From Bacteroidaceae bacterium (lineage in GTDB: Bacteria; Bacteroidota; Bacteroidia; Bacteroidales; Bacteroidaceae): a stretch of DNA of 64,000 nucleotides. Within the stretch, counting starts at the first letter, position 1. Every line of letters starts with the position of its first letter. The notes under the pieces were generated by a model. That model was given only the letters and a program-made list of their open reading frames with translations, did no database searches and was not told the DNA's origin. Where the stretch lies: NCBI GenBank assembly GCA_017442855.1, contig JAFSPM010000048.1, positions 1 to 64,000 on the forward strand, written 5' to 3'. A program made the translations under genes and the position numbers. Below are positions 13,396 to 34,085 of the stretch, piece by piece.

Positions 13396-13402
13396 TTTTT
13401 AT

Positions 13403-14500: not shown

Positions 14501-14541
14501 TTAACAAGGTAAATATAGGTTGTGATTTTCTGGTTAACTAA

Positions 14542-15576: not shown

Positions 15577-15581
15577 CCACA

Positions 15582-15648
15582 TTCCGACATTTGTGTAAAA
15601 GTCACCGCCTTTTTTATTTTCAAGGTGTCCTGAATCACGCTAACTTTG
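15582..15648 (+). promoter_or_regulatory. Promoter with degenerate operator for NTF2-like gene
   Basis: The -7 box is TAACTTTG (15641-15648). At the positions expected from 13366, TTCCG, GTG-AAAA, TC--CG and TTTTTTATTTT are retained, while the arms no longer pair and the -33 reads TTTC. Confidence 0.6.
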
Positions 15649-15686
15649 CAAAAGAAAACAATAATAACTAAAAAACAATAAGCATT

Positions 15687-16190: not shown

Positions 16191-16202
16191 TAAAAAATTA
16201 AG

Positions 16203-16880
16203 ATGAAGAAATTCCTTCTTTTCATAGCAGTTGCAAGCACCCTGATGATACTGGGTGCTTGCAATTCTTCTGACAACCAGCAAAACAATGAACTGGGCGA
16301 GCAGTATCAGATTAAATTCTCTGCAGAGACCATTAATCCCAAACCCAACAAAAGAGTGTTGATTATTTCAGCGAGTCCACGCAAGGCAGGAAATACAGAC
16401 CTGTTAGCCGATGAGTTCATGCGTGGTGCGAAAGAAGTAGGTGCACAAGTGGAGAAAATATTCCTGGGCGACTACGACATCAAGTTTTACACCGAGCCTG
16501 ATGCAGCACCTGGTGAACCTATCCAATGGCCACAGGACGATGCACAAATGATTACCAACAAAATGGTGGATGCTGATGTGATTGTATTGGCAAGTCCTGT
16601 GTATTTCATGAACATCAACGGACAGATGAAAGCTTTGATAGATCGCACCTTCAGCCGTTTTATGGAAATCAAGGACAAGGAGTTTTTCTACATCACGGCT
16701 TGTGCGGATCCTTTGGAAAGCACTGCCATGCGTGCAATCGACGGCTTCCGCGGCTTCGTGATGTGTCTGCCCAACCCCACCGAAAGGGGCATGGTAATGG
16801 CAATTGGCATGGGACGCAAGGGAGGCGTGAAAGGCAGTCAGTTTATGACCCAAGCATACGAGTTAGGAAAAAAAATATAA
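16203..16880 (+). CDS. FMN reductase / flavodoxin-fold lipoprotein
   Basis: 225 residues with a lipobox LGAC (Cys20). The mature part has the NADPH-dependent FMN reductase signature ISASPRKAGNTD, then ADVIVLASPVYF with the Pro-x-Tyr typical of the flavin pocket, and a late GMGRKGG. Being anchored outside the cytoplasm is unusual for this family but agrees with the other exported redox proteins here. No Tat motif is present, so FMN would be bound after Sec export, or the signal is unusual. Confidence 0.8.
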   Translation: MKKFLLFIAVASTLMILGACNSSDNQQNNELGEQYQIKFSAETINPKPNKRVLIISASPRKAGNTDLLADEFMRGAKEVGAQVEKIFLGDYDIKFYTEPDAAPGEPIQWPQDDAQMITNKMVDADVIVLASPVYFMNINGQMKALIDRTFSRFMEIKDKEFFYITACADPLESTAMRAIDGFRGFVMCLPNPTERGMVMAIGMGRKGGVKGSQFMTQAYELGKKI

Positions 16881-16890
16881 TAAATATAAT

Positions 16891-18051
16891 ATGAACAGAT
16901 TTGACTATTCTTATCCTATCCGTGTATATTTCGGACAGGGATGTTTTGAAGAATCATTGCGCAAAGAGCTAAAGAGCACAGGCAAGAACATTTTGCTGGC
17001 ATACGGTGGCAGTTCTTTGAAGCGCACGGGACTCTACGACAAGATTATGAGCATCTTGCAAGATGAAGGCAAAAGAGTTATTGATTTCAGTGGCATCATG
17101 CCGAATCCTACCTATGCAAAGACGCAGGAAGGCGCGAAGCTGGTGAAAGAACATCATATTGACTTTATATTAGCAGTTGGAGGGGGCTCTGTCTCTGACT
17201 GCTGCAAAGTTGTCTCTGCTCAAGCTTTATTAGACGAGGATATTTGGGAAATGGAATATACCCACCATCGTTATCCTAACCAGTTTGTTCCTATGGGAGT
17301 AATCGTTACGGCTTCTGGCACAGGCTCGGAGCAAAACAACGGTGCCGTGATTACCAACGAGGAGAAGCAAATGAAAAGTCCTTTATGGGGCAGCTTCGCC
17401 AATTTTGCCATTTTAGATCCAGACCTGACCAAGACCGTGCCGATGAAGCAGGTTATCAGCGGTGCTTTCGACACTTTGAGCCATTGCATGGAGACCTATT
17501 TTGGCAAGCCTTCGCAGAACAACGTCTCAGATGAAATAAACGAAGCAATCATGCGGAATGTAATACGGAACATGAGAGCCATCAAACAAAACCCTGAGAA
17601 TGACTATGCCCGGGGCGAACTGATGTGGAATTCTGCTATGGGTGAGAATGGATTACTAAAATTAGGAAAAGACACAGACTTCCAGTGCCACATGATTGAG
17701 CATCAACTGGGCGCCTATACAGATTGCAATCATGGACAGGGATTGGCAGCTATCCATCCGGCATTCTACAGGTTCCTTATTCCTTACAATATGGAGAAAT
17801 TCGTAAGGTTTGCCGAAGAAGTTTGGTACATTGAAACCACCAATAAAACTGACGAGGAGATTGCCTTAGACGGCATTGATGCCCTCTCAGACTTCATTAC
17901 CGAAATGGGGCTGCCAGGTTCGTTATCAGATATGGGCATCACAGATGACGAAATCTTACGCAAGGTGGCCGACACAACCATTATAACACCAGGTTGCGCC
18001 AAGCAGCTTACTCCTGATGAGATTTACACCATTCTGCAAGAAAGCAAATAA
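16891..18051 (+). CDS. Iron/zinc-containing alcohol dehydrogenase, YqhD/BdhA-like
   Basis: 386 residues, cytosolic. The metal ligands of the family are present at Asp194, His198 (DTLSHCMET), His267 and His281 (HMIEHQLGAYTDCNHGQG), the same numbering as in E. coli YqhD as I remember it. The NADP-binding GGGSVSDCCK and TASGTGSEQNN motifs are seen. YqhD relatives reduce short aldehydes with NADPH, so it may remove an aldehyde released or made by the exported enzymes. It starts 10 bases after the FMN reductase stop, clearly in one operon. Confidence 0.88.
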   Translation: MNRFDYSYPIRVYFGQGCFEESLRKELKSTGKNILLAYGGSSLKRTGLYDKIMSILQDEGKRVIDFSGIMPNPTYAKTQEGAKLVKEHHIDFILAVGGGSVSDCCKVVSAQALLDEDIWEMEYTHHRYPNQFVPMGVIVTASGTGSEQNNGAVITNEEKQMKSPLWGSFANFAILDPDLTKTVPMKQVISGAFDTLSHCMETYFGKPSQNNVSDEINEAIMRNVIRNMRAIKQNPENDYARGELMWNSAMGENGLLKLGKDTDFQCHMIEHQLGAYTDCNHGQGLAAIHPAFYRFLIPYNMEKFVRFAEEVWYIETTNKTDEEIALDGIDALSDFITEMGLPGSLSDMGITDDEILRKVADTTIITPGCAKQLTPDEIYTILQESK

Positions 18052-18088
18052 TACAATTATTATTCACCTTTCAAGAATTAGATAAGTG

Positions 18089-19087
18089 ATGAAAGTATTA
18101 ATAACCATCATGGCTATGTATCTGTTTACAGCCTGTAGCAGCAACTATGTACAAGCAGAGGCACCTATAGATTATAAAAACACTTCCATACTGATGGAAA
18201 ACGGCACAACAACATCAAAACTATATACAAGGAATAGCAGCATCAGTGAAGTGATGAGCGATCCTGCATTTGGCAACTATGGCAGGTTGCTCTTTCCAGT
18301 AAACACCAGCTACTGGAGTGGTAACACTTTAGAACAGTTACGCCTTACTTGGTACAACCATATTGACCCTGACAAGACGGTGGAGATAGTGAATTACCTG
18401 AAATCGCAAGCAGAAGTTGGTGAGCCGTTCTTCATCGACATCTATACAGAGGAAGAGAAGAAAGCCGACCCTCGCAAGCGAGATACGGGCTTGTTCTTCT
18501 TCAAAGGCAAAGCAGGCGCACCTTTTGCCATCTGTAATGCCGGTGGCGGTGGCGTTTTCGTGGGAGCCATGCACGACAGTTTTCCCCATGCCTTGGAGAT
18601 TTCCAAAAAGGGTTATAACGCCTTTGCACTCATCTACAGAGCAGGTAATGGCGCAATGGAAGACTTAGCAAGGGCCATTGACTATATTTTCACTCATGCC
18701 GATGAATTGGGCGTTGGCACTGAATGCTATTCAGTATGGGGAGGTTCTGCAGGAGCTCGAATGGCGGCATCAATGGGCAGCTACGGACCTGCCAACTTTG
18801 GGGGTATTACCACACAAAGAGCAGGAACTGTCGTGATGCAATATACAGGGCACAGCGACTATACCCGCAACGACCCTCCTACTTACGTTTGTGTGGGAGA
18901 GAACGATGGCATCGCCAGTTGGCGCACAATGAAAAACCGTATTGACAAGTTGACTGCTTTGGGCATTCCCACTGAGTTTCATGTCTATCCTGGTTTGCCT
19001 CACGGCTTCGGCCTTGGCATCGGCACTGTAGCCAATGGCTGGATTGACGATGCCATCCGCTTTTGGGAAAAGCAGATGAAATTTTGA
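18089..19087 (+). CDS. Lipoprotein alpha/beta hydrolase (family 2), BD-FAE/acetyl-esterase-like
   Basis: About 332 residues with lipobox FTAC (Cys16). It is a close paralog of the gene at 4089: the FPVN--YWSG, GLFFFKGK, ICNAGGG, GGSAGARMAA and GLPHGFGLGIGTVA blocks are shared. The start is the ATG at 18089; a GTG three bases earlier is the nominal frame start. It follows the alcohol dehydrogenase by 37 bases. The esterase pair of the left cassette is thus also present here but separated by three redox genes. Confidence 0.82.
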   Translation: MKVLITIMAMYLFTACSSNYVQAEAPIDYKNTSILMENGTTTSKLYTRNSSISEVMSDPAFGNYGRLLFPVNTSYWSGNTLEQLRLTWYNHIDPDKTVEIVNYLKSQAEVGEPFFIDIYTEEEKKADPRKRDTGLFFFKGKAGAPFAICNAGGGGVFVGAMHDSFPHALEISKKGYNAFALIYRAGNGAMEDLARAIDYIFTHADELGVGTECYSVWGGSAGARMAASMGSYGPANFGGITTQRAGTVVMQYTGHSDYTRNDPPTYVCVGENDGIASWRTMKNRIDKLTALGIPTEFHVYPGLPHGFGLGIGTVANGWIDDAIRFWEKQMKF

Positions 19088-19113
19088 TTTCTCGTTTTTT
19101 TGTTTTAACTTTG
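19083..19113 (+). promoter_or_regulatory. Promoter for cytosolic AKR
   Basis: TTTG (19083-19086) overlaps the end of the esterase gene and TAACTTTG (19106-19113) lies 19 bases on. No copy of the shared operator is seen. Confidence 0.75.
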
Positions 19114-19168
19114 AGTCAGAAGAGAACAAAACGGATTAAACGGTATATATTCATTAAAAGAGATAGCT

Positions 19169-20014
19169 ATGGAGACAATTAAGTTAAGCAATGGCATTGA
19201 GATGCCAAAACTGGGATATGGTGTATTCTTGGTACCACCACAGGAATGCGAGCGTTGCGTCAGTGACGCATTGGAAGTAGGTTATCGCCTGATTGATACG
19301 GCACAGGCATACGCCAACGAAGAAGGTGTTGGCAATGCGATAGCGAAATCTGGTATCAAGCGCAAGGATATTTTTTTGGTGACAAAGGTGTGGATTAGCA
19401 ATGCTGGCGAGGAAAAGGCAGCTAAGTCAATTGATGAGAGCCTGCGTAAACTGCAGACCGACTATATCGACCTCTTGCTCATCCACCAAGCCTACGGTGA
19501 TGTGTTCGGCTCCTGGCGAGCTATGGAGAACGCCTATCGTGACGGTAAGGTGAAAGCTATTGGCGTTTCTAACTTCCAGGAGGCTCGTTTCTTCGACTTT
19601 GCCCACTATGTGGATATCAAACCTATGGTGAACCAGCTGCAATGCAATGCCCTGATTCAGCAGCGAGGCATCGAGCCACTGTTGACAGACTATGGCACTC
19701 GCATGATGGCATGGGGGCCTTTGGGCGGTCAAGGCGTTGATGGTATCCGAGAAAGTGAGGTTTTGGCAACAATCGGTGCCCGTTATGGCAAGACGGCTTC
19801 ACAAGTAGCACTGCGTTGGCTCACCCAACGAGACATCGTGGCTATTCCAAAGAGTACCCACAAAGAGCGCATGGCACAGAACCTGAATATCTTCGACTTC
19901 AAACTGTCTGATGAAGAGATGCAGCAGATTGCTACCATGAACCAGCACGATGCCGGCACCGTGAACTTCACAGACATGAATTTCGTAAAATACCTCATTG
20001 AGACCTACGGCTAA
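19169..20014 (+). CDS. Cytosolic aldo/keto reductase
   Basis: 281 residues, no signal. Tetrad residues are Asp43 and Tyr48 (LIDTAQAY), Lys73 (TKVW) and His106 (LIHQA), with NQLQCN and the cofactor motif AIPKST. It is of the 2,5-diketo-gluconate/prostaglandin-F-synthase type used for small carbonyls. Unlike the AKRs at 9356 and 13466 it stays in the cytoplasm and can use NADPH directly. It has its own promoter. Confidence 0.88.
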   Translation: METIKLSNGIEMPKLGYGVFLVPPQECERCVSDALEVGYRLIDTAQAYANEEGVGNAIAKSGIKRKDIFLVTKVWISNAGEEKAAKSIDESLRKLQTDYIDLLLIHQAYGDVFGSWRAMENAYRDGKVKAIGVSNFQEARFFDFAHYVDIKPMVNQLQCNALIQQRGIEPLLTDYGTRMMAWGPLGGQGVDGIRESEVLATIGARYGKTASQVALRWLTQRDIVAIPKSTHKERMAQNLNIFDFKLSDEEMQQIATMNQHDAGTVNFTDMNFVKYLIETYG

Positions 20015-20039
20015 CCCAAATAGAAGCTGCAAATAATAG

Positions 20040-20073
20040 TTGCCCCGTGTAGAATTACTTCCACACGGGGCAA
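20040..20073. terminator. Bidirectional terminator between AKR and inverted AKR fragment
   Basis: TTGCCCCGTGT (20040-20050) pairs with ACACGGGGCAA (20063-20073). T-runs are weak on both sides. Its position between convergent 3' ends supports a terminator. Confidence 0.7.
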
Positions 20074-20098
20074 ATTGTATCGATCAAGAAAAAACTGC

Positions 20099-20287
20099 TT
20101 ACAGCTCATCTATCTGACGAGTACGCTGACGCTGTTCCACATCAGTATAGCGACTTTGGAAAGTACGTGTACCTTTGTCGAGTGCACGAATCTGGTTCAT
20201 CTCGCTTTCTGAAAGTTCAAAGTCGAAGATGTCAATATTTTCCTTGATGTGGTCAGGATTCTTGGAGCCAGGAATCACAGCTATGCG
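20099..20287 (-). pseudogene. C-terminal fragment of an aldo/keto reductase, minus strand
   Basis: Reading the minus strand from 20287 gives RIAVIPGSKNPDHIKENID, then an FDFELSE block and a tail VEQRQRTRQIDEL with a stop at 20099. This is the last 60 or so residues of an AKR, including the cofactor-binding IPGS motif. The upstream part of the gene is missing: at about 20285 the sequence switches into a second AKR fragment running the other way. No start codon is available, so it is not expressed as a protein. Confidence 0.88.
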
Positions 20288-20372
20288 TGGCCTGAATAAA
20301 GAACAAAGATTCTATAACAGTCCCTATTCAAATTTAAGAGGATTTGTATCTAACAGAGCTCTGGAGGACTAA
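20283..20372 (+). pseudogene. C-terminal fragment of an aldo/keto reductase, plus strand
   Basis: RGLNKEQRFYNSPYSNLRGF and a short tail end in a stop at 20370-20372. The start of this matches RALNKEQRLYNATYQQTKGF at the end of the gene at 13466. It abuts the minus-strand AKR fragment within 5 bases, so two broken AKR genes point away from each other from one junction. It lies 2 bases before the EFR1 gene, which may keep it as that gene's leader. Confidence 0.82.
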
Positions 20373-20374
20373 CC

Positions 20375-21244
20375 ATGAAAAGACGAGATTTTATCAGATT
20401 TATGGCAGCAACAATGACAGCAACATTCGTGGGAGCCAACGTATTGTCAGCCTGTACCACAGAGCGAGGCAAGAAAAGACTGGTATTCTTCTTCACAGGT
20501 ACAGGCAACAGCCTTTATGCAGCGAAACAGTTCTCAGACAATCCTCTCAGCATCCCACAGGTGATGAAAAGTGACAACCTTGTATTTGACGCTGATGAAA
20601 TAGGACTGGTTTATCCGATATATGGCCATCAGCCTCCTGGTATCGTGCGTGACTTTTTGGAGAAAGCAACCCTGAACGCTCCTTATAAGTTTGCCGTCGC
20701 TACTTTTGGCGCACGCAAATGTAATACTGTAGAAATTCTCGACCACATTGCCTCCAAGGCAGGGATAAAGTTTGACTATATCACCACTATACACATGGTG
20801 GATAACTTCCTTGTAGGCTTCGACATGAACGAGGAAATCAAGTTGGAGAAGCATGAGGATGAGCAATTGGCTCAGGCGGTGGCTGATGTAAATGAGCAGA
20901 AGCACTGGTTCCAGCCTTTTACGGAAGAAGAGAAAAAACTTCATGATGAACGCTACGGCAATGACTATGATAGGCGCATGACCATGAACAGCAACGGTGC
21001 GTTCAAGATTGACCGTGACGCTTGTGTAGGTTGTGGGTTCTGCACGAGGGTATGTCCTCATAAGAACTACAAATTTACTTCACAAGGCATCACCACTGAT
21101 GGCAACTGCGAGATGTGCTTCTCTTGCATACAGAACTGTCCACAGAAAGCCATCAAACTGAATATGCACGAGGTGAATCCGAATGCAAGATATCGTAATC
21201 CGCACATCACCATTAATGAAATTGTTCGTGCCAACATGCAATAA
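20375..21244 (+). CDS. Tat-exported EFR1 family flavodoxin/ferredoxin lipoprotein
   Basis: 289 residues. The leader MKRRDFIRFM is a clear twin-arginine motif and LSAC a lipobox. The FMN loop TGTGNS and [4Fe-4S] motifs CVGCGFCTRVCP and CEMCFSCIQNCP are intact. GGAGG at 20363-20367 is an unusually good ribosome-binding site for this region. No TAnnTTTG promoter lies between it and the AKR fragments, and a terminator stands at 20040, so expression after the rearrangement is uncertain. Paralogs are at 2162 and 6664. Confidence 0.85.
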   Translation: MKRRDFIRFMAATMTATFVGANVLSACTTERGKKRLVFFFTGTGNSLYAAKQFSDNPLSIPQVMKSDNLVFDADEIGLVYPIYGHQPPGIVRDFLEKATLNAPYKFAVATFGARKCNTVEILDHIASKAGIKFDYITTIHMVDNFLVGFDMNEEIKLEKHEDEQLAQAVADVNEQKHWFQPFTEEEKKLHDERYGNDYDRRMTMNSNGAFKIDRDACVGCGFCTRVCPHKNYKFTSQGITTDGNCEMCFSCIQNCPQKAIKLNMHEVNPNARYRNPHITINEIVRANMQ

Positions 21245-21260
21245 TTCGTTTTATTTTCCA

Positions 21261-21268
21261 TATCTTTG
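21261..21268 (+). promoter_or_regulatory. -7 box for second AraC regulator
   Basis: TATCTTTG lies 22 bases before ATG 21291. This excludes the upstream in-frame ATG at 21183, which is inside the EFR1 gene. Confidence 0.7.
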
Positions 21269-21290
21269 CGAAGAAGAGAAACGCAAGGAT

Positions 21291-22100
21291 ATGGATTTTG
21301 ATACGAGCAATATTATCATTGAGAACGACCTGAACGGACTGTTAGAAGAACGGTTGGCGAATTACGTAGGTCATTTCTATTGTACAGAGGGAAGTTGTGT
21401 CATTAAATTCAACGAGAAGGAATTGGTGTTCAGCCAAGGTGACTGTATGATCATCACTGTCCCAAGCATGGTTTCTCGCATAGAGCCAGGGGAAGGCTTC
21501 AAGACGAAAGCAATTTATACTTCCATACCTTTCCTGGAATCTTGCGCTCCGCGTAACAACTACGCTATCAAGGGCACTTTGTTGCTCTATGTAGATCCTA
21601 TCTGGCACCTCAACGAAAGCGAGAAAAAGATTTGCCAGCATAATTTCCAACAAGTGGAAGAGCGACTCGCCGATACCGACCATGCCTTTCATCGGGATCT
21701 TATGATGAGTGTGGTACAAACCTTTTTCCTGGATTTTTATAATTTCCAAGTACGTATCTATGGCAATAACGACATCAAGGAACAACAGTCTTCTCTCATG
21801 ATGCGCTTCATCGACATGCTCAGGAACGGCGAGTATCGAGAACATAGGGAACTAAGCTATTTCGCTGATAAGCTTTGTGTTACTCCCAAGTATTTATCAG
21901 AGGTTTCAAAGAAAACCAGTGGGTTCAGTGCCAACTATTGGATTAACAGGTTTACAATTATAGAAATCAACCGATTGCTGAAAAACAGATCACTATCATT
22001 TGTTGAAATCTCTGAGATGTTCAACTTCTCATCTCCCGCTTATTTCTCACGCTATGTGCAAAACTATTTGGGTGAATCACCATCGGCTCATAGACAATAA
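21291..22100 (+). CDS. AraC family transcriptional regulator
   Basis: 269 residues, a paralog of the gene at 5755 along its whole length: MDFD start, a FYCTEGSCVIKFNEKELVF-type sensor strand set, and a C-terminal double helix-turn-helix ending SPAYFSRYVQNYLGESPSAHRQ-like. It is followed after 9 bases by an outer-membrane protein gene. With two related regulators in one region, each may serve one cassette, or both may compete for the shared operator. Confidence 0.85.
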   Translation: MDFDTSNIIIENDLNGLLEERLANYVGHFYCTEGSCVIKFNEKELVFSQGDCMIITVPSMVSRIEPGEGFKTKAIYTSIPFLESCAPRNNYAIKGTLLLYVDPIWHLNESEKKICQHNFQQVEERLADTDHAFHRDLMMSVVQTFFLDFYNFQVRIYGNNDIKEQQSSLMMRFIDMLRNGEYREHRELSYFADKLCVTPKYLSEVSKKTSGFSANYWINRFTIIEINRLLKNRSLSFVEISEMFNFSSPAYFSRYVQNYLGESPSAHRQ

Positions 22101-25371: not shown

Positions 25372-25761
25372 CTACTGCTCCTCCTCTTTAAATTTCTTAC
25401 CTTTGCTGCTCTTACGATGAGCCACAATATATTCACGATGCTTGTCGGCCCAGGCAGTAAGCGATACGATGAAAGGCACAAGTTCCTTGCCTAATTCCGT
25501 GAGCTGATATTCTACATGCAAAGGAACCTCGGGGAAAACTTCACGTTGGATAAGAGCATCGTCTTCCAATGCCCGTAGCGTATTTGACAACACTTTCGTT
25601 GACACATCAGGAATAGCACGGCTCAACTCTCCAAAACGGATAGAACCTTTCTCACTAACTACCAATATTACCAAGAACGCCCATTTATTGCCAAAACGGG
25701 CTACTACGTTACGAACGGGACATACCTCAAAGATGCTGTTTTTCTCTTCTTTCTTAAGCAT
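25372..25761 (-). CDS. HxlR family transcriptional regulator
   Basis: 129 residues with the single winged-helix domain of HxlR proteins (FGNKWAFLVI, FGELSRAIPDVSTKVL, then the wing). Cys14 sits in CPVR, the position of the redox-sensing Cys in HypR-type members, so sensing of reactive electrophiles or oxidants is plausible. The C-terminal tail is basic. It is divergent from the ABM lipoprotein at 25992 and likely controls it and the following genes. Confidence 0.85.
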   Translation of the reverse strand: MLKKEEKNSIFEVCPVRNVVARFGNKWAFLVILVVSEKGSIRFGELSRAIPDVSTKVLSNTLRALEDDALIQREVFPEVPLHVEYQLTELGKELVPFIVSLTAWADKHREYIVAHRKSSKGKKFKEEEQ

Positions 25762-25852: not shown

Positions 25853-25949
25853 TTTTTGTAACAGGCTGATAACACCAATATAGACTTTTTTGTAACTACC
25901 CTACCTTTTTATCACCTCTTGACAAGCATTTCCTTTTTACGTAATTTTG
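25853..25949 (+). promoter_or_regulatory. Divergent control region: direct repeats and promoter for ABM gene
   Basis: TTTTTGTAAC occurs at 25853-25862 and 25887-25896, 34 bases apart, about three helical turns. The -7 box TAATTTTG is at 25942-25949 with a -33-like TTGA ending near 25922. The repeats are candidate HxlR sites. Confidence 0.55.
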
Positions 25950-25991: not shown

Positions 25992-26684
25992 ATGAAAAGG
26001 ATAATGTATGGTTTGGCAATGATGAGCCTTATTGGTATGGCATCATGCGCACAGAAAGCTGCACAGCAGCAGGAAGAGGCAGCTCCTGAAGCAGCTGCAA
26101 GTAACAACGAAATTCGCATCAACTGCCTGTTTAAGGTGGCTCCTGAGAATGTGGCTAACATCGTGAACCTGAGCAAGGAACTGGTGGCTGCTTCTCGCAA
26201 CGATAGTGGTAACATTGACTATGACATTTATCAGAGTCAGATGGATCCTACACAACTGATGATATTTGAGACTTGGAAAGACCAAGCATCTCTTGATGTT
26301 CACTCTAACGCAGCTCACTTTACCCGCATTGTACCTCAGTTGGCTGGTGCTGCTGTAGGCGAGATGGCTATCCAGTCTTTCACTGCTGACAGCAAGGGTG
26401 ATGGCATTCGCATCAACTGCTTATTTAAGGTTGCTCCTGACAATTTGGTAAAGATTTTGGGACTTTCTAAGGAATTGGTGGAAATTTCCCGCAAGGATGC
26501 TGGTGTAATTGACTATGATATCTATCAGAGCCAGACGGACAAGACACAGCTGATGATATTCGAGACTTGGAAGGATCAGCCTTCATTGGACGTTCACTCT
26601 AATGCAGATCATTTTACCCGCATTGTACCTCAATTGGCTGAAGCCGCAATAGGTGAGATGGCCATCCAAACATTCAAGAAGTGA
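25992..26684 (+). CDS. Lipoprotein with two tandem ABM (antibiotic biosynthesis monooxygenase) domains
   Basis: 230 residues with lipobox MASC (Cys19) and an Ala/Glu-rich linker. Two copies of a 98-residue ABM-type ferredoxin-like domain follow, starting IRINCLFKVAP at about residues 41 and 139; they share most residues, including YDIYQSQ and MIFETWKDQ. ABM proteins bind small aromatic or quinone compounds and some oxidise them without cofactors; a two-domain chain would mimic the usual dimer. The near-identical halves (294-base period) mark a recent internal duplication. Confidence 0.82.
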   Translation: MKRIMYGLAMMSLIGMASCAQKAAQQQEEAAPEAAASNNEIRINCLFKVAPENVANIVNLSKELVAASRNDSGNIDYDIYQSQMDPTQLMIFETWKDQASLDVHSNAAHFTRIVPQLAGAAVGEMAIQSFTADSKGDGIRINCLFKVAPDNLVKILGLSKELVEISRKDAGVIDYDIYQSQTDKTQLMIFETWKDQPSLDVHSNADHFTRIVPQLAEAAIGEMAIQTFKK

Positions 26685-26717
26685 TTTATCATTTGCTAAC
26701 AGATAGTTTTTGAGAGG

Positions 26718-26762
26718 ATGGCAGGCAGGCGTGATAAAACGCACTCGTGCCATTTTTCTTTT
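26718..26762 (+). terminator. Possible imperfect terminator after ABM gene
   Basis: GGCAGGCAGGCGTG and CGCACTCGTGCC form an imperfect stem followed by ATTTTTCTTTT. No promoter is evident before the next gene, so it may only reduce transcription. Confidence 0.4.
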
Positions 26763-26785
26763 AGCTGAATTCACACTTTTATATT

Positions 26786-27655
26786 ATGAGTGCAGAATTA
26801 AAGACCCGCTTTCATGTAGATATATCTAAATGCATCGGCTGCGGACGCTGTGTAAATGTTTGTACGGGCATGGTGCTGAAAATGTCAGACGGAATGCCTG
26901 TTATGCAGCCTTATGAGAAATTCGGATGGAGCGGATGCTGGCGATGCCAGCATTGCATAGCAGTATGCCCCGAAGGTGCCATCTCTATTTTCGGGAAGAA
27001 AACGTCCGACCTGCCTTCCAAACCAGACAATATCATAGCAGAACAGCTGGAGAGACTGGTGAGTTACAGGCGTTCATGCAGAAGATACCTGATGAAAAAT
27101 GTGGCTCCGTCAATCATCGACAGAATCATGGATGCCATGCAGCAGGTTCCCACAGGAGGCAATGCCCAGCAAGTGGAATACACAGTAATTGATGATATGA
27201 ACCGCTTGGAAGAGATTTGGGATATCGCCTATGCCCGTATGGAGGAGAATGCGAAGCGAGGCTACTATAGCAGCGGTTTCTCATCACGTCTGTACCAAAC
27301 TATGAAGCGGTCGGAGAATAGTCTTCGCAAGGATGATATGTTGTTTTGCGGAGCACCTCACCTCTTTGTGGCTCATCAGAAGGCGTCGGGCAAATGGGTC
27401 AGCGATGCCATTGCTGACTGCAACATCGCAACCGCTTATTTTGAACTGCTTTGCAATGCTCATGGGTTGGGTACCGTCATCATGAGTTATGCGGCCAGCG
27501 TATTGCAGGACGTTCCGCAAGCACGGGCTATGCTGGGCATTCCAGAAGACCACTACATGAATCTCATCGTAGGTTTCGGCTATCCTGAGATTCCTTACGC
27601 CAGAGGCGTGAAGAAAGACCGGTTCAGCAAGATTCACAGATGGAGCAAACGTTAA
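26786..27655 (+). CDS. Nitroreductase family protein with N-terminal ferredoxin domain
   Basis: 289 residues. Two [4Fe-4S] motifs, CIGCGRCVNVC and CWRCQHCIAVCP, come first, then a nitroreductase fold with YRRSCRRY, a VPTGGNAQQVEYT flavin segment and a C-terminal VGFGYPEIPYARG block. Such proteins reduce nitro, quinone or unsaturated compounds with electrons from ferredoxin. It is cytosolic. Coming after an HxlR-controlled ABM gene it fits a response to aromatic electrophiles. Confidence 0.87.
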   Translation: MSAELKTRFHVDISKCIGCGRCVNVCTGMVLKMSDGMPVMQPYEKFGWSGCWRCQHCIAVCPEGAISIFGKKTSDLPSKPDNIIAEQLERLVSYRRSCRRYLMKNVAPSIIDRIMDAMQQVPTGGNAQQVEYTVIDDMNRLEEIWDIAYARMEENAKRGYYSSGFSSRLYQTMKRSENSLRKDDMLFCGAPHLFVAHQKASGKWVSDAIADCNIATAYFELLCNAHGLGTVIMSYAASVLQDVPQARAMLGIPEDHYMNLIVGFGYPEIPYARGVKKDRFSKIHRWSKR

Positions 27656-27666
27656 TGTAATTTTAT

Positions 27667-28428
27667 ATGATCAAAAGAACTATACTGTTATTATTTGTGT
27701 CAATGGCGATGAATGCCTTTGCACAGGTTACGAGAGAGATCCCGATGGACGCATCCCATCTGGAAGGAGTGAACGGTATGCCAATGTCGTTTGAGATGTT
27801 CGACGGCTATCAGGTACTGCATGTAGTTCCTGAAGAGAATGCTCCTATGGCTATGACGTTAGCTGACTTAGGACTGGATGCCAATCAAACAGATAATGGT
27901 CCTGTCAAGGCGATGTCATCCAATAAGCCACCTCAGTTTGTTAAGGTGAAGGATGTGGATTTCCACAATGGTACCATCGAACTGAAGGTATGGAGTCACA
28001 TTGTTGACGGAGCTCCTGAGCTGGCGCGTGGCTTCATGGGAGTGATGTTCCGTATCAATGCTGACTATTCAAGAAATGAATATATGTATATTCGTCCTCT
28101 TAATGCGATGGTTGATGACCAAGTGAGGCGTAACCATACGTTACAATATGCTTCAAACCCAGGCTTGAACTTCGTGCTGTCACGACAGAAATTTCCAGAG
28201 AAATATGAGTCGTATGCAGAGATGGCACTCGACTGTTGGATTCTGTTGCGTATTGTGGTGAAAGACTCAATAGCTAAATTGTATATCAATAACCACGAAC
28301 AACCTTCTCTGGTGGTAACAGACCTGTGGCAAGGTCCCGATTTGCGTGGTTCTGTAGGCATCAGTGTAGGCACGGAACTGGGTACTGAAGGCTATTTCCG
28401 TGACTTGAAGATTACGACCGAAGATTGA
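27667..28428 (+). CDS. Exported protein with LamG/DUF1080-like beta-sandwich
   Basis: 253 residues with a Sec signal ending AFAQ. The pattern of strands (FHNGTIELKVWSHI, RGFMGVMFRIN, YMYIRPLN, RIVVKDSIAKLYINN, GSVGISVGT) is that of concanavalin-like domains found in DUF1080 proteins. It starts 11 bases after the nitroreductase. No catalytic residues are identified; sugar binding is a guess. A true DUF1080 protein is at 62473. Confidence 0.6.
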   Translation: MIKRTILLLFVSMAMNAFAQVTREIPMDASHLEGVNGMPMSFEMFDGYQVLHVVPEENAPMAMTLADLGLDANQTDNGPVKAMSSNKPPQFVKVKDVDFHNGTIELKVWSHIVDGAPELARGFMGVMFRINADYSRNEYMYIRPLNAMVDDQVRRNHTLQYASNPGLNFVLSRQKFPEKYESYAEMALDCWILLRIVVKDSIAKLYINNHEQPSLVVTDLWQGPDLRGSVGISVGTELGTEGYFRDLKITTED

Positions 28429-28500
28429 ATTTTGCAAATAGTCTTTTTATATACATTCAATGAGCAAGAATCTATATTGTCGCTCAGCCAGTGAAGTCAG

Positions 28501-28580
28501 TCACCGTGGTGACTGTGTTTACTCATCGTTGTGATTTTGTTAAGTCATCGCCTTGATTAAAAATCTTCATCGGTGTGACT
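28501..28580. repeat. 22-bp periodic array, four units
   Basis: TCACCGTGGTGACT, TCATCGTTGTGATT, TCATCGCCTTGATT and TCATCGGTGTGACT start at 28501, 28523, 28545 and 28567, exactly 22 bases apart. Each keeps TCA-N6-TGA dyad symmetry; the first is a perfect palindrome core. The array occupies the 339-base gap before the peptide/radical SAM operon, about 140 bases upstream of its -7 box. Confidence 0.75.
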
Positions 28581-28695
28581 AAATTTCTATGGCTGTTGTA
28601 ACATTGTATAGTTAATCATTGTTAATGTAAAAATGGCAAGCGCTTCAAATCGTCAATCTTGCACTATTTGTAACCATGAAACAAAAAAGTAACCT

Positions 28696-28727
28696 CTTGT
28701 GCATTATAATTCAACATCTTATCTTTG
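28696..28727 (+). promoter_or_regulatory. Promoter of the peptide/radical SAM/macrodomain/sirtuin operon
   Basis: CTTG (28696-28699) and TATCTTTG (28720-28727), spacer 20 bases. It is the last recognisable promoter before 34085. Confidence 0.7.
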
Positions 28728-28767
28728 CAATGGAAAAAACAAATGTATGAACTTAAATATTTATTTT

Positions 28768-29520
28768 ATGAAAAGATTTGTATCATTCTTGATGATGGCA
28801 TCTTTACTGATAATAGGTGCCAATGCACAGAAGAAAATCATGTTTGACCTCTCACACAGTCAATGCACTGACGTATATGAAGGTCATGAAACCTATCCTT
28901 TAGTGGTACCTGCTTATACAGAGATGGCACAGCAGTTGGGTGCCGAATTAGTGGTAAATGAAGAGGCAGAGATTACTCCTCAACTACTGAAAGGCATTGA
29001 TGTATTGGTAATGTTATCACCCTTGAGCAACAAATTGCAGAAAGACTTGACGGAGGTAGAGAAGAAAACTTTGGTTGACTTTGTAAAGAAAGGTGGCTCA
29101 CTCATATTCTTCGTTGATGACAACCATCGTGTTGATTTAAGCCGTTATGGGGCCAACGATGTTACGAGAGCGTTTGGCATTGAGTTCGGCGAGGATGTAG
29201 CCCTACCAGGTAATGTGGGAGCCGTTTCTTTCAAGAATGAAATTTTCAAGGATCGTTACGAGATTCCATACAGCGGTGCTTGCGTAATGACAGGCGGAAT
29301 ACCTGCCAGTGTCTGCATGGAAGATGGCTGGCTGCACAGTAGCTATGTAAAGCTCGACAATGGAGGCAAGTTCTTTGCCGGTGGCGACACAATGGTAGGC
29401 CTGCTCTTAGGTTATGATGATGGTGTTCGCAAAGTAAGGAACGGTATGGAAACCCGCTGGTGGGGCAAAGATAGTCGTGCTTTTATGACCGATTTGTTGG
29501 AATGGGCTTTGGAAAAATAA
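28768..29520 (+). CDS. Exported GATase-like (DUF4350-type) protein
   Basis: About 250 residues with a Sec signal ending ANAQ. The Rossmann-like pattern (KIMFDLSHSQC, then IDVLVMLSPLS, VKKGGSLIFFVDD, and GGKFFAGGDTMVG) resembles DUF4350/class-I glutamine-amidotransferase-like domains, without a clear catalytic Cys-His pair. I chose ATG 28768 because it begins the signal peptide; an in-frame ATG at 28699 lies upstream of the -7 box. It is the first gene of the operon with the Cys-repeat peptide. Function unknown. Confidence 0.65.
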   Translation: MKRFVSFLMMASLLIIGANAQKKIMFDLSHSQCTDVYEGHETYPLVVPAYTEMAQQLGAELVVNEEAEITPQLLKGIDVLVMLSPLSNKLQKDLTEVEKKTLVDFVKKGGSLIFFVDDNHRVDLSRYGANDVTRAFGIEFGEDVALPGNVGAVSFKNEIFKDRYEIPYSGACVMTGGIPASVCMEDGWLHSSYVKLDNGGKFFAGGDTMVGLLLGYDDGVRKVRNGMETRWWGKDSRAFMTDLLEWALEK

Positions 29521-29555
29521 CAACCCTATTTATTAACTTTCAAATAAAAGAAATT

Positions 29556-29768
29556 ATGAAGAGAATTGATTTCAATTTCGCTCATAGCGCCCAGGGCGTT
29601 ATGCTGAACGAAGAGAAGCCAGCTGCATGTGGTGCAGCTTGTGGTGCAGGTGACAAACCAGCTGAAGAGAAGCCAGCTGCTTGCGGTAGCGCTTGTGGCG
29701 CAGGCGACAAACCAGCTGAAGAGAAACCCGCAGCTTGCGGTAGCGCATGCGGTGCAGGTGAGAAGTAA
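29556..29768 (+). CDS. Cys-repeat peptide, likely RiPP precursor
   Basis: 70 residues. A leader of about 18 residues (MKRIDFNFAHSAQGVMLN) is followed by three copies of an 18-residue unit, EEKPAACGSACGAGDKPA, the last cut short as AGEK. Each unit has two Cys in ACG-xACG spacing, six in all. The DNA units are 54 bases (29610, 29664, 29718). The gene ends 9 bases before a radical SAM/SPASM gene. Small repeat peptides rich in Cys-Gly beside such enzymes are typical RiPP precursors, and I recall an ACGX-repeat class of this kind. A metal-binding peptide is the main alternative. ATG 29556 is used; an in-frame ATG at 29502 lies inside the previous gene. Confidence 0.8.
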   Translation: MKRIDFNFAHSAQGVMLNEEKPAACGAACGAGDKPAEEKPAACGSACGAGDKPAEEKPAACGSACGAGEK

Positions 29769-29777
29769 TCAGTCATT

Positions 29778-30815
29778 ATGGAGTATTTTGCTTTCCAATG
29801 GCATATTACGGATGAGTGCGACCAACGTTGCAAGCATTGTTACATCTTTTCCGAAGGGCATCCCAAACTGATTGAGATGCCTTGGGAAAGGTTGGTTTCG
29901 GTGCTTGCCAACGTGGAGCGCATGTGTCGGAAGATGAGCCGCCTACCATATTTATATATTACAGGTGGCGACCCTATTTTGCATAGTCGCTTTTGGGATT
30001 TTCTGGAGTTAGTGCATAGCCGCAACATTCCTTTCACCATTATGGGCAATCCGTTCCACCTGACGGATGAGGTATGCCAACGCCTCAAGAGCTTAGGATG
30101 CCGCAAGTACCAGCTAAGCATTGACGGACTGCGCGAGACACATGACTATTTCCGTAAACCCGGCTCGTTTGACAGGACTCTGGAAGCCATTGCCACCATC
30201 CGCAAAGCGGGAATGCATTGTGCCATCATGACTACGGTATCGGGTACGAACATTAACGAGATACCTGATATTATTGATTTGGTAGTGGAACATCATGCAG
30301 ACATCTTCGCGTTTGGCAGGTACTGCCCCACCAGTGAGGACAAGGCTACACCTGATAAAGGCTGGCATATCGAGCCACTGAAATATCGAGACTTATTAGA
30401 GAAATGCTGGGCGAAGTACGAACAATACAAGAACTCAGATACGACTTTTAACCTGAAGGATCATCTGTGGACGCTCTTCCTCTACGAGAAAGGATTGTTT
30501 AAGATTCCTGAGGGGCTTAATGATGATATCATTTATGATGGTTGCAATTGTGGTAACTGCCACTTCACTATTTCTGCAGAGGGAAGACTGATGGCTTGCC
30601 GACGTTTCGAAAGTTATGTGGGAACAGTGGAAGAAGAGTTGTGCGATGTGTTTAATGGTGAGAAAATGGAGCAATATCGACTGCATGAAAAGTTTGAGAA
30701 ATGTCGCAAATGCGAGCTGTTACGTTTTTGTAGAGGTTGTCCGGCAGTAGCTTTTGGATATACACATAATTTCTATGCATCTGATCCTCAATGCTGGAAG
30801 GAGATTGACAGTTAA
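29778..30815 (+). CDS. Radical SAM/SPASM peptide maturase
   Basis: 345 residues. The radical SAM motif is Cys14-x3-Cys18-x2-Cys21 (CDQRCKHC), followed by the GGDP motif at YITGGDPILH. The C-terminal SPASM region has many Cys (CNCGNC, MACRRF, CRKCELLRFCRGCP, DPQC) for auxiliary clusters. Such enzymes make thioether or other crosslinks in peptides encoded nearby; the Cys-repeat peptide 9 bases upstream is the obvious substrate. No B12 or RRE domain is evident by eye. It is co-transcribed with a flavin/ferredoxin protein that could supply electrons. Confidence 0.9.
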   Translation: MEYFAFQWHITDECDQRCKHCYIFSEGHPKLIEMPWERLVSVLANVERMCRKMSRLPYLYITGGDPILHSRFWDFLELVHSRNIPFTIMGNPFHLTDEVCQRLKSLGCRKYQLSIDGLRETHDYFRKPGSFDRTLEAIATIRKAGMHCAIMTTVSGTNINEIPDIIDLVVEHHADIFAFGRYCPTSEDKATPDKGWHIEPLKYRDLLEKCWAKYEQYKNSDTTFNLKDHLWTLFLYEKGLFKIPEGLNDDIIYDGCNCGNCHFTISAEGRLMACRRFESYVGTVEEELCDVFNGEKMEQYRLHEKFEKCRKCELLRFCRGCPAVAFGYTHNFYASDPQCWKEIDS

Positions 30816-30832
30816 TCATTATTCAATAAAAA

Positions 30833-31447
30833 GTGGACGCAATAACTTGTATTAAAAAGCTTGGGTATGTTGGAACCCTTACCTTTGCAACGGTAGATAA
30901 AAACGGACATCCTCAAGTTCGCAGTATCAGTGCCATTCATTATGAGTCAGACGCAATCTATTTCTATACTGCGCGAGGAAAGAATTTCTGCCAGCAGTTG
31001 ATGGCAGACGGCCACGTGCAGATTCTAGCGCTTACCAAATATAAGGAGATGATACGTCTCTCTGCCGTTGCCAAACCTGTACCTGACGACGAACAGGAAT
31101 ATTGGAAGGATGTGATATTCAAGGAGCAGCCCTATTTGGCTAATGTCTATCCAGGCGATACCAGAAGCATAGGTATTATTTTCTATATCCGTGATGCTCA
31201 AATAGAATATTTCTTCTTAGGTTGTCATCCTATAGATAGAGAATACTTAACGATGGGAAATGCTGTGCCAGAACATAAAGGTTTTGTAATTACAGATAGT
31301 TGCATTGCTTGTGGCACATGTCAGACAGTATGTCCACAGGGTTGTATTGAAGAGGGAGAGACATACCACATACAACCTAATCATTGTCTGCATTGCGGCA
31401 ATTGTTTTGAAAACTGCCCTGTTGAAGCTATTGTTAGATTGGACTAG
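30833..31447 (+). CDS. Pyridoxamine-phosphate-oxidase-like flavoprotein with C-terminal ferredoxin domain
   Basis: 204 residues starting at a GTG codon. The N-terminal part is a split-barrel flavin-binding domain (GTLTFATVDKNGHPQVR, then IYFYTARGKNFCQQL). The C-terminal 55 residues carry two [4Fe-4S] motifs, CIACGTCQTVCPQGC and CLHCGNCFENCP. The pairing suggests an electron-transfer protein with flavin or F420-like chemistry; it could serve the radical SAM enzyme 17 bases upstream. A shorter PPOX protein without the ferredoxin part is at 34360. Confidence 0.82.
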   Translation: MDAITCIKKLGYVGTLTFATVDKNGHPQVRSISAIHYESDAIYFYTARGKNFCQQLMADGHVQILALTKYKEMIRLSAVAKPVPDDEQEYWKDVIFKEQPYLANVYPGDTRSIGIIFYIRDAQIEYFFLGCHPIDREYLTMGNAVPEHKGFVITDSCIACGTCQTVCPQGCIEEGETYHIQPNHCLHCGNCFENCPVEAIVRLD

Positions 31448-31449
31448 TT

Positions 31450-32415
31450 ATGAAAGCTATTATAATAGAGAAATGTTGCGAGGCAGAAGACTTGCATGTA
31501 AGTGAATTACCTAAACCAACTGCCAAACCTGGTTGGGTATTAGTGAAGGTGCATGCAGCTGGCTTAAACCATTCAGAAGCACTGCTGAGAATGTTTGAGG
31601 CCGACAATGATTATATCAATACGCCCATAGTACCAGGCATAGAGTGTGTGGGTGAGATAGCCGATGCTTCTGATTCTCAATTCCAAAAAGGCGATAAGGT
31701 GATTGCCTTAATGGGAGGTATGGGGCGCAGCTTTAATGGTAGCTATGCTGAATATGCTTTGCTACCCGAAAGTCATGTATTCAAAGTTGATACAAACCTC
31801 GACTGGATTTCATTGGCAGCTGTCCCTGAAACTTATTTTACAGCCTACGGTTCTTTGTTTGAATGCCTATACCTTACTGCTGAAGACACACTGTTAGTAC
31901 GTGGAGCAACCAGTACTGTAGGACAAGCTGCTATCCAGTTGGCAAAAGCAGTTGGTGCAAAGGTGATTGCAGCTTGCCGTAAGGAAGAATCTTTCGAAAA
32001 GTTGAAAGGCATCGGAGCTGACTATTGTATCATCGACGAAGGACAACTCAGCCAACAGTCATTACCCTATAAACCAAACAAGATTTTAGAGTTAATAGGT
32101 CCAAAGACATTACGTGACTCGTTGCTTACCGTCACACACCCTGGTTATGTATGCAGCACTGGTGTTTTGGGCAATGTGTACTCCATTACTCAGTTCGACC
32201 CAATCAAATATATACCAAACGGAGTATTCCTCACAGGGTTCTATTCCAATTTCCCAACTTATCAATCTATAAACAACCTATTTGACTTGATTAACAAGGC
32301 ACAGCTAAAACCGCTCTATGCCAAGGTGTTCACTTTAGATCAAATTGTAGAGGCACATACCTTGTTAGAGAAAGGTGGTGCCGGAGGTAAAATCATATTG
32401 AAAATTGATTATTAG
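31450..32415 (+). CDS. MDR-family oxidoreductase, quinone-oxidoreductase-like
   Basis: 321 residues, cytosolic. The GroES-like start has GLNHSEALLR and PGIECVGEI, and the Rossmann part has TSTVGQAAIQLAKAVGAKV. The catalytic zinc Cys is replaced (LNHSE), which places it among the NADPH quinone reductases or enoyl reductases and not the zinc alcohol dehydrogenases. It starts 2 bases after the previous stop. It probably detoxifies or reduces a conjugated carbonyl. Confidence 0.85.
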   Translation: MKAIIIEKCCEAEDLHVSELPKPTAKPGWVLVKVHAAGLNHSEALLRMFEADNDYINTPIVPGIECVGEIADASDSQFQKGDKVIALMGGMGRSFNGSYAEYALLPESHVFKVDTNLDWISLAAVPETYFTAYGSLFECLYLTAEDTLLVRGATSTVGQAAIQLAKAVGAKVIAACRKEESFEKLKGIGADYCIIDEGQLSQQSLPYKPNKILELIGPKTLRDSLLTVTHPGYVCSTGVLGNVYSITQFDPIKYIPNGVFLTGFYSNFPTYQSINNLFDLINKAQLKPLYAKVFTLDQIVEAHTLLEKGGAGGKIILKIDY

Positions 32416-32449
32416 ATAAATCGTTTTTGAGTCTTGAACATTATACTAT

Positions 32450-33202
32450 ATGTGGGATAGGATTGAAAATATTGATTTTGTATTGAAATACTTGTTGGTG
32501 GAACAAGGAGCCCCCCCCAAGTTGCCAGATAATCTAGAAACAAAACAAAGATTAATGCGGGCATTGATGAACGTGCGCCAACCTGTGCCCGCATCAGATG
32601 AGTTCATAGCAGCACAAGATGCCGAACTGAAGCTACAGGCTAAGGATAAGGGTATTGTTAAGATTGACCAGCCTGGTATTTCCATATGGCAAGGTGACAT
32701 CACCCGTTTGCAAGTGGATGCCATTGTGAATGCGGCCAACTCAAAATTGCTGGGGTGCTGGCAGCCCCTGCATGCTTGTATTGACAACTGCATCCATTCC
32801 GCTGCCGGTATTCAGCTAAGACAGGAATGCCATGAGCTGATGCAAGCTCAGGGACATGAAGAGCCTACAGGGTGGGCAAAGATGACCAAGGGTTATAACC
32901 TACCAGCGAAATATGTGATTCATACTGTAGGGCCAATCATCCCTGACGGACACCCTACCCCATTACAAGAGGAGCTGTTGGCTTCTTGCTACCGTTCATG
33001 TCTGGAAGTGGCTGAGCTACATAAGCTACAAAGCATCGCTTTTTGCTGTATTTCTACTGGTGTGTTTCATTTTCCTAACCAAAGAGCTGCTGAGATAGCT
33101 GTGGAAACTGTGAAAAAATATCCCTTGACGTCACTCAAAACTATCGTTTTCAATGTATTTATAGACAAAGACTATGACATCTATCATCGACTTATTCAGT
33201 AA
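32450..33202 (+). CDS. Zinc-type macrodomain protein-ADP-ribose hydrolase
   Basis: 250 residues. After an N-terminal helical region comes a macrodomain: GDITRLQVDAIVNAANS (Asn94), then GCWQPLHACIDNCIHSAAG, in which Cys103, His108 and Cys110 match the metal ligands of zinc macrodomains from Staphylococcus and Streptococcus SirTM operons, and the ISTGVFHFP loop (201-209). This class removes ADP-ribose from proteins modified by the adjacent sirtuin. An unbroken run of eight C at 32511-32518 lies in codons 21-23 and could slip. The SirTM gene starts 7 bases after its stop. A paralog begins at 276. Confidence 0.9.
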   Translation: MWDRIENIDFVLKYLLVEQGAPPKLPDNLETKQRLMRALMNVRQPVPASDEFIAAQDAELKLQAKDKGIVKIDQPGISIWQGDITRLQVDAIVNAANSKLLGCWQPLHACIDNCIHSAAGIQLRQECHELMQAQGHEEPTGWAKMTKGYNLPAKYVIHTVGPIIPDGHPTPLQEELLASCYRSCLEVAELHKLQSIAFCCISTGVFHFPNQRAAEIAVETVKKYPLTSLKTIVFNVFIDKDYDIYHRLIQ

Positions 33203-33209
33203 AAAGACA

Positions 33210-34085
33210 ATGTCACAACCAACGTTTAAGCATCGTATTGAACAAGTGAGGAAACTTTTGTACGAAGCTGACCATGTATTGATTGGTGCAGGCTCGGGGC
33301 TTTCAGCAGCAGCTGGCTTGGACTATGGGGGCGCGGAGTTCAAGCAGGAGTTTCATGAGTGGATAGAGCGTTATGGATTTGAAGACCTTTATTCTTCTTC
33401 ATTCTATCCATTCCCAACAGAAGAGGAAAGATGGGCATATTGGGCGAGGCATATCTGGTTTACTCGCTATCGCGTCAAAGGTATGGAGCTTTATCACCAG
33501 CTTTTTGATTTGGTTAAAGACAAGAATTATTTTGTCATCACTACCAATGTGGATGCACAGTTTGAGAAATCGGGCTTCTCGAAAGATAGAATTTTTGCCA
33601 CACAAGGCGACTATGCCTATTTTCAAGCTAAGGGTGGAGAAAACAAAAAGTTGATTTATAATGAGGAATGGGTGAAGCAAGCGATGGATGCAACCATTAA
33701 TTGCAAGGTACCCACATCATTGATACCCCATCATCCAGATACTGGTGAGGCACTGAGTCCTAATTTACGTTGTGACAGTTTTTTTGTAGAGGATGAACAT
33801 TGGCACCAACAAGCTGATAAATATCAAGATTTCGTACTGACAGGCAGTAAGAAGAACATGCTGTTATTAGAGTTTGGTGTGGGCTTCAACACGCCAATTA
33901 TCATCCGTTTCCCCTTCGAGCAAATGGCTGGAAACTTTGAAGGAACAACCCTTGTACGCTTCAATCGCGACTACCCACAACTTACAACACCATATGTGAC
34001 AAGATACATTGCCTTTCAAGAGAAACTAAACCAGTCTTTGTTGCAGGCCATTGCCTCAATGGCAACTATGTCAGCTTCTGCTTAG
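33210..34085 (+). CDS. SirTM-type sirtuin (class M), putative protein ADP-ribosyltransferase
   Basis: 291 residues from ATG 33210; an upstream in-frame ATG at 33174 would overlap the macrodomain gene by 29 bases. The NAD motif GAGSG (26-30), the class-M block YGFEDLYSSSFYPF, EEERWAYWARHI and TTNVD (111-115) are present. The usual catalytic His is Gln132 (TQGD), the class-M hallmark; Asn113 and Gln132 keep the spacing I recall for the Streptococcus enzyme. Where related proteins often have a Cys pair it reads HHPDTG, so the structural zinc may be lost. No GcvH-like or lipoate ligase gene adjoins it. Its last codons run into a GH35 relic. Confidence 0.88.
   Translation: MSQPTFKHRIEQVRKLLYEADHVLIGAGSGLSAAAGLDYGGAEFKQEFHEWIERYGFEDLYSSSFYPFPTEEERWAYWARHIWFTRYRVKGMELYHQLFDLVKDKNYFVITTNVDAQFEKSGFSKDRIFATQGDYAYFQAKGGENKKLIYNEEWVKQAMDATINCKVPTSLIPHHPDTGEALSPNLRCDSFFVEDEHWHQQADKYQDFVLTGSKKNMLLLEFGVGFNTPIIIRFPFEQMAGNFEGTTLVRFNRDYPQLTTPYVTRYIAFQEKLNQSLLQAIASMATMSASA

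Follow-up and report, generated by a model that had tools for sequence, protein, structure and literature searches.

What does a small, cysteine-rich repeat peptide do for the bacterium that encodes it next to a radical SAM/SPASM enzyme? The question is raised by a locus in a 64,000-nt stretch of DNA from a Bacteroidaceae bacterium (assembly GCA_017442855.1, contig JAFSPM010000048.1, positions 1 to 64,000), here called the window, which encodes a peptide and an enzyme of the ACGX type. A family name exists for this pair, but neither its product nor its role is in the literature searched. We propose that the ACGX cassette, read as one for a ribosomally synthesised and post-translationally modified peptide (RiPP), is part of a response to thiol and electrophile stress, and give this model in its full form a rough probability of 0.5. 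It is carried by the genomic setting, in which a regulator of a thiol-sensing kind and quinone or nitro reductases accompany the pair; such company points to coping with reactive chemicals, not to an antibiotic. This setting is the informative part of the analysis and had no place in the sequence-only reading of the window, a note made without database searches. It is also new information: literature searches for HxlR with RiPP, HxlR with radical SAM, and radical SAM RiPP with quinone or electrophile left the linkage unreported, judging from the listings.

The precursor gene (29556-29768, plus strand) encodes 70 aa with three repeats and six ACG motifs, scoring 62 bits on TIGR04341 (cut-off 28). 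Its stop codon lies 9 bases before the ATG of the enzyme gene (29778-30815, plus strand), whose 345-aa product has no N-terminal extension and reaches 565 bits on TIGR04340 (cut-off 400), with PF04055 and PF13186 also over their cut-offs. These open reading frames (ORFs) confirm the arrangement described in the sequence-only reading, and both its interpretation as a RiPP precursor with its maturase and the ACGX-peptide/radical SAM partnership it named are backed by the two NCBIfam matches. Judged by these models, peptide and enzyme are the known, catalogued pair TIGR04341/TIGR04340, the ACGX system, and it is very probable that they act as a RiPP pair. A full-text literature search for ACGX and the family names returned nothing on this subject, judging by title.

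Scanning a collection with a single genome for each species gave 322 enzyme relatives; the best 80 of these (L002-L081, 64-96% identity) were kept, and locus counts out of 81 refer to them and the window. Since close relatives of the peptide begin at MKR, which corresponds to 29556, this start is preferred over an alternative in-frame ATG at 29502 that would give 88 aa. The three tandem copies of the repeat (54 nt, 18 codons; starts at 29610, 29664 and 29718) and their six ACG motifs stood up to inspection, but the length of 18 residues claimed for each did not hold for the third, which has 16 codons before the stop. All six Cys of the peptide lie inside ACG. Synonymous codon differences outnumber non-synonymous ones among the repeat copies (4:1, 8:2 and 8:1) and between the window peptide and those of L002 (14:2), L004 (7:2) and L006 (23:5), a pattern that suggests selection on the repeats. 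A repeat arising by chance was ruled out by the synonymous divergence among the copies together with the family model matches. TIGR04341 is matched by 31 of the 32 rows of the peptide alignment, window included (E 0.01); the number of core Cys ranges from 3 to 8 among relatives, against 6 in the window peptide, and Gly follows Cys in 402 of 403 cases. The enzyme alignment (48 rows: the window and 47 of the 80 loci) keeps the radical SAM residues C14, C18 and C21 (CX3CX2C) and the SPASM residues C256, C258, C274, C309, C312, C318, C321 and C339 in every row, and C261 in 47; all 48 match TIGR04340 at E 1e-10 or better.

The two genes also travel together. In 78 of the 80 loci the 900 nt upstream of the enzyme contain a frame, ACGX-like by eye, that has two or more CG motifs; the other two, L009 and L036, sit at contig ends with 47 and 469 nt left upstream, so they are uninformative on peptide absence. 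In L049, L060, L073 and L074 a gene of a cupin cluster lies between peptide and enzyme, so the two need not adjoin. In a sample of 393 genomes from the same order, the window's own included, the peptide was over cut-off in three, again including the window's own, and the enzyme is present in all three. The sequence-only reading had raised the possibility that the peptide might be absent beside orthologous enzymes, and this was seen once, at L092 (also L100) in genome G776, where the enzyme scores 485 bits, over the cut-off, but the surrounding 17.5 kb lack a peptide of this type; this is a real exception to the pairing. The TIGR04341 search of the G776 genome listed none either, although it also passed over a peptide in G652. 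The general pairing bears on an alternative in which the peptide merely buffers thiols or metals through its many Cys while the enzyme acts elsewhere or modifies it in part. Metallothionein-like repetition would suit such a buffer, but a peptide that meets its enzyme at 78 of 80 loci and in three of three order genomes argues against it, and we regard it as very improbable.

The genomic setting was analysed by calling ORFs up to 7 kb from the enzyme at the 80 loci and in the window and clustering them by BLASTP, with clusters named from the family matches of the window members and by eye. When DNA within 3 kb of the enzyme (417 kb) was compared with that at 3-7 kb (424 kb), HxlR/DUF24 regulators occurred 65 times against 2, quinone oxidoreductases 49 against 1, nitroreductases 25 against 3, ABM proteins 14 against 3 and PNPOx-ferredoxin proteins 13 against 0. 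For 39 of the 81 loci (window included) the sequence extends 4 kb or more to each side; of these, 36 have HxlR, which is absent from L003, L025 and L076, and all 39 have a quinone oxidoreductase or nitroreductase. HxlR is uncommon: the genome of the window (2.76 Mb, 80% complete) has three copies, and 16 of 60 sampled order genomes (own included) have one at E 1e-10. Nine HxlR loci without ACGX, limited by their contigs to 8-13 kb, held no quinone oxidoreductase and one nitroreductase. An enzyme tree of 85 rows, made by a quick method, requires at least five changes in the position of HxlR and at least 11 swaps between the two reductases: gene order and partners shift across loci, while content stays mostly constant. 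The HxlR tree, which combines 48 linked rows with 15 of the 23 outside loci and suffers from few columns and long branches, has at least six label changes, of which starred branches force only two, and suggests that HxlR may have been recruited several times.

Two further alternatives meet this evidence. The presence of one or the other reductase at every full-flank locus, with the partners interchangeable, would be expected if the modified peptide served the linked enzyme as redox cofactor or carrier, in the manner of mycofactocin or PQQ. As a rule, however, both types of reductase work with NAD(P)H and FMN, the product would be multi-repeat and of variable length, and no processing genes were recognised among the clusters named by eye, so that this role is quite improbable. 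A conventional secreted RiPP, antibacterial or signalling, with neighbours that serve self-protection or are there by chance, would fit the leader-plus-core layout, and the view of exporters is confined to the neighbourhoods of the loci. Against it stand the HxlR linkage, the varying number of core Cys and the lack of any recognised exporter, peptidase or immunity gene among the eye-named clusters found in at least five loci, a lack that comes without a dedicated search; we consider a secreted product improbable.

The regulator itself fits a stress response. In the window, the HxlR/DUF24 gene (25372-25761, minus strand) encodes 129 aa matching PF01638 (E 8.9e-28; 96 bits, cut-off 20.8), with a single Cys, Cys14, in CPVRNV. 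Of the 67 linked HxlRs, 64 carry an N-terminal Cys within the motif CP[IVLMT]R, and in 50 it is the sole Cys. According to the available parts of PMC6943732, the Bacillus regulators HypR, YodB and CatR use their N-terminal Cys to detect HOCl, quinones and diamide, and AzoR1 and the nitroreductase YodC detoxify quinones. The Cys of the linked HxlRs fits redox sensing but, being a general DUF24 trait, does not single out these loci. Taken together, stress regulation of the ACGX operon appears likely.

Candidate promoter/operator elements were found on the plus strand ahead of both transcription units. The first, P1 (25892-25949), lies between HxlR and its divergent operon and consists of GTAAC-N14-ATCACCTCTTG (25892-25921) over a promoter CTCTTGAC...TAATTTTG (25916-25949), the composite element having two mismatches. 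The second, P2 (28670-28727), precedes the unit holding the RiPP pair and consists of GTAAC-N14-GTAACCTCTTG (28670-28699) over TTG...TATCTTTG (28697-28727), with no mismatches. The element common to both is GTAAC-N14-[GTAA/ATCA]CCTCTTG, and allowing up to two mismatches the composite was found twice in the window against 0.03 expected. The promoter boxes we take to be of the Bacteroidota type (TTG-N-TAnnTTTG); the pattern TTG-N17..22-TAnnTTTG alone occurs 12 times on the plus strand of the window. Across loci, GTWAC-N14-GTAACCTCTTG with at most two mismatches occurs in 18 of 77 promoter regions (one strand) against 2 of 158 other intergenic regions (both strands). Eight of these 18 (L033, L045, L046, L054, L059, L063, L073 and the window) are represented in the HxlR tree, and all eight sit in one 14-row fork. 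Exact GTTAC-N5..16-GTAAC occurs in 14 of 76 promoter regions, where shuffles gave 0.15 and the other intergenic regions 1 of 158, and with one mismatch in 36 of 76, compared with 5.3 and 6 of 158. Since the GTTAC/GTAAC and composite motifs were first spotted by eye and then tested, they are post hoc. The short core RTMACCTCTTG is unspecific, with 17 genome sites against 6 for its reversed control, and a count of exact palindromes gave no clear winner. Scans for sigma-70 promoters and for terminators did no better than chance (20 against 19.8 and 9 against 7.0). The P1/P2 motif is predicted to be an HxlR operator. Given P2 and a hairpin resembling a terminator at 28498-28515, two units are likelier than a single operon over 25992-34085.

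The pair and its conservation, the linkage, the conserved Cys and the shared motif are direct observations; what we infer from them is that HxlR binds there and with what effect, what induces the operons, which chemistry takes place, and where and to what end the peptide acts. A one-Cys HxlR would occupy operators of the form GTWAC-N14-GTAACCTCTTG, which overlap the -33 box in both P1 and P2; compounds that attack thiols, quinones for example, would react with its N-terminal Cys and turn the operons on, and the quinone and nitro reductases would clear these compounds. The radical SAM enzyme, perhaps with electrons from the PNPOx-ferredoxin protein, would modify the repeated [AS]-C-G units, and the product would stay in the cell as a multivalent soft nucleophile or a buffer of metal (Cu(I)). 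Action inside the cell seems to us somewhat favoured.

Several observations weigh against this reading. The loci share ancestry, so the linkage counts are non-independent, and the lack of exporter and protease genes is subject to the limit given above. Unlinked HxlRs, e.g. those of L085 and L087, also have an N-terminal Cys. The composite element is missing, at more than two mismatches, from 59 of 77 promoter regions, some loci have GTTAC-N9-GTAAC instead, and the other intergenic regions used as controls are shorter (mean 186 nt) than the promoter regions (mean 227 nt). Some HxlRs are aldehyde-responsive activators, as the accessible parts of PMC7835342 report, the B. subtilis HxlR being a formaldehyde-activated positive regulator with a Cys11-Lys13 bridge; the window HxlR has, by inspection, Val and not Lys two residues past its Cys. 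Besides the exception to pairing in G776, the enzyme of this genome has no HxlR, quinone oxidoreductase or nitroreductase in 17.5 kb either. The system is also rare and patchy: the enzyme is over the TIGR04340 cut-off in 5 of 393 order genomes including the window's own (4 of 392 others), in none of the two same-genus and three same-family genomes of that sample, and in none of the 394 other genomes of a 395-genome phylum sample that includes the window's own.

Within the order sample, the enzymes of G652 and G746 are 100% identical to loci already in the set (as L141 and L140), which leaves G738, with peptide, HxlR and quinone oxidoreductase beside the enzyme, as the only new positive; G652 has a peptide that the TIGR04341 genome search did not pick up, and G351 has a 209-aa frame matching TIGR04341 below cut-off at 23 bits. 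The carriers of the pair are gut and sediment bacteria, the cultured Labilibaculum manganireducens (L051) among them. Locus titles name Bacteroidota taxa in 79 of 80 cases, and the exception, L070, is on a 4.8-kb contig of a metagenome-assembled genome (MAG) named Oscillospiraceae and may be a mis-binned Bacteroidota piece. Title keywords point to ruminant gut in 39 of 80, horse gut in 1 and 'RUI' in 3, with neither in 37. Two larger relatives were noted. L093 (G782:C30, 1270-3021, minus strand; the genome was found via a MAG named Oscillospiraceae) is a 583-aa protein with about 240 extra N-terminal residues that reaches 390.8 bits, just under the TIGR04340 cut-off of 400, and L088 (G216:C124, 364-1806) is a 480-aa protein with a C-terminal extension beside a 319-aa ORF, scoring 225 bits on TIGR04340.

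As to the chemistry, the curated family with known chemistry closest to the window enzyme, after ACGX's own, is the SbtM maturase (TIGR04082, 173.9 bits), ahead of AhbD (121.5), PapB (57.6) and the anaerobic sulfatase maturase, anSME (52.6). All 48 rows of the enzyme alignment match the SbtM model, on which five other radical SAM proteins in G782 score 22-75. In the accessible parts of PMC11002830, SbtM, accession WP_083768621, is described as converting Cys to thiooxazole with loss of four H, acting on Cys/Sec. By this analogy an SbtM-like 5-thiooxazole, at -4 Da per ACG, is the chemistry we tentatively favour. The score counts against it in being below the SbtM cut-off of 350 and in covering model positions 198-515 only, so that the likeness is one of 'works like' and not of membership. 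The kinship also rests on model scores, since no SbtM tree was possible: no TIGR04082 members at E 1e-60 were found among 348 genomes from the phylum of G782, which does not imply absence.

The same stress setting could instead involve ranthipeptide-type thioethers at -2 Da, the loss per crosslink that the sequence-only reading had in view, with the second or single Cys linked to Asp or Glu at +4, as made by PapB in freyrasin. For this speaks the strong enrichment of CX3[DE] (202 against 32.5 in shuffles), a point to the detriment of the thiooxazole. Of the 403 core Cys, however, 183 have Cys at +4 and 18 of the remaining 220 have no acid there; thiooxazole is favoured because Cys-Gly is near absolute and the acid at +4 is not. 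The PapB model NF047865 gives 57.6 bits, below its cut-off of 340, against 173.9 for SbtM. In structure, the enzyme model aligns with anSME over residues 2-342 and with CteB from CteB residue 92 onward only, anSME tying with CteB, a further point against thioethers, which we think unlikely.

The remaining genes of the two units lie on the plus strand. The divergent operon encodes a protein with two ABM (YgiN/LsrG-like) domains (25992-26684; PF03992, two stretches), a ferredoxin-nitroreductase fusion (26786-27655; PF00881 and Fer4) and a protein of neighbour cluster c15 (27667-28428) with no NCBIfam or Pfam match at E 0.01. Upstream of the peptide is a ThuA/GldG-like protein (28768-29520; PF09822/PF06283 below cut-offs; cluster in 9 of 81 loci), listed from GTG 28699, ATG 28768 being the likelier start. 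A ThuA-like protein, 84% identical to a member of this cluster, lies in another HxlR locus of the same genome (L137, G000:C16). Downstream of the enzyme come a PNPOx-like flavin domain fused to [4Fe-4S] ferredoxin motifs (30833-31447; PF01243, Fer4; cluster in 13 of 81 loci), a possible electron donor to the enzyme, and a PIG3-type NAD(P)H:quinone oxidoreductase-like protein (31450-32415; TIGR02824 178 bits, under the cut-off of 297; PF08240/PF00107). These are followed by a macro-domain protein (32450-33202; PF01661, E 1.2e-39) and a Sir2-like protein (33174-34085; GAGSGLSAAAG by eye alone, no Pfam match at E 0.001), whose genes (32450-34085) occur in 5 of 81 loci each and resemble the macrodomain-SirTM pairs of stress operons; homologues of both lie in a further HxlR locus of the window's genome (L138, G000:C48). 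Elsewhere in the window, at 2162-22100, a run of redox genes named by inspection lies beside the ACGX operon and resembles a stacked reductase island, with three flavodoxin/ferredoxin-like proteins (2162, 6604 and 20375), a polyferredoxin (7732), three aldo-keto reductases (9356, 13466 and 19169), an iron alcohol dehydrogenase (16891), AraC-type regulators (5740 and 21183) and duplicated esterases.

How does the ACGX cassette compare with known systems? With the NCBIfam ACGX system it shares the repeat type, both window proteins being over the curated cut-offs, although the library names state neither product nor role. With the YodB, HypR and CatR regulons the loci share an N-terminal-Cys HxlR/DUF24 regulator and nitro/quinone reductases, but the available parts of PMC6943732 mention no RiPP for these. 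The PapB and CteB ranthipeptide maturases are alike in the radical SAM/SPASM fold, Cys-rich substrates and CX3D-type spacing, and differ in the low PapB family score and the late start of the CteB alignment, while SbtM differs in that the window enzyme leaves its model positions before 198 unmatched. MNIO enzymes, as the accessible parts of PMC13097082 have it, install 5-thiooxazoles on EGKCG repeats to give copper-binding captophorins. Captophorins, bufferins and oxazolin, the MNIO-made 5-thiooxazole peptides, resemble ACGX peptides, in a works-like sense only, in their repeated x-Cys-Gly, stress link and multiple sites. The maturase of these peptides is an MNIO that uses O2 and has a partner protein, and they come with Sec signals and in a copper context (PMC13097082 and PMC12452194, in their available parts), whereas at the ACGX loci the gene beside the peptide encodes a radical SAM/SPASM enzyme and the context is HxlR. 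It is conceivable, if on the doubtful side, that ACGX peptides are an O2-independent, radical-SAM-made counterpart of the captophorins, that is, intracellular poly-thiooxazoles induced through a one-Cys HxlR that would absorb electrophiles or soft metals and not serve attack or signalling. Should the proposed stress role hold, a radical-SAM RiPP that protects anaerobes from stress would join the copper buffering reported for MNIO peptides.
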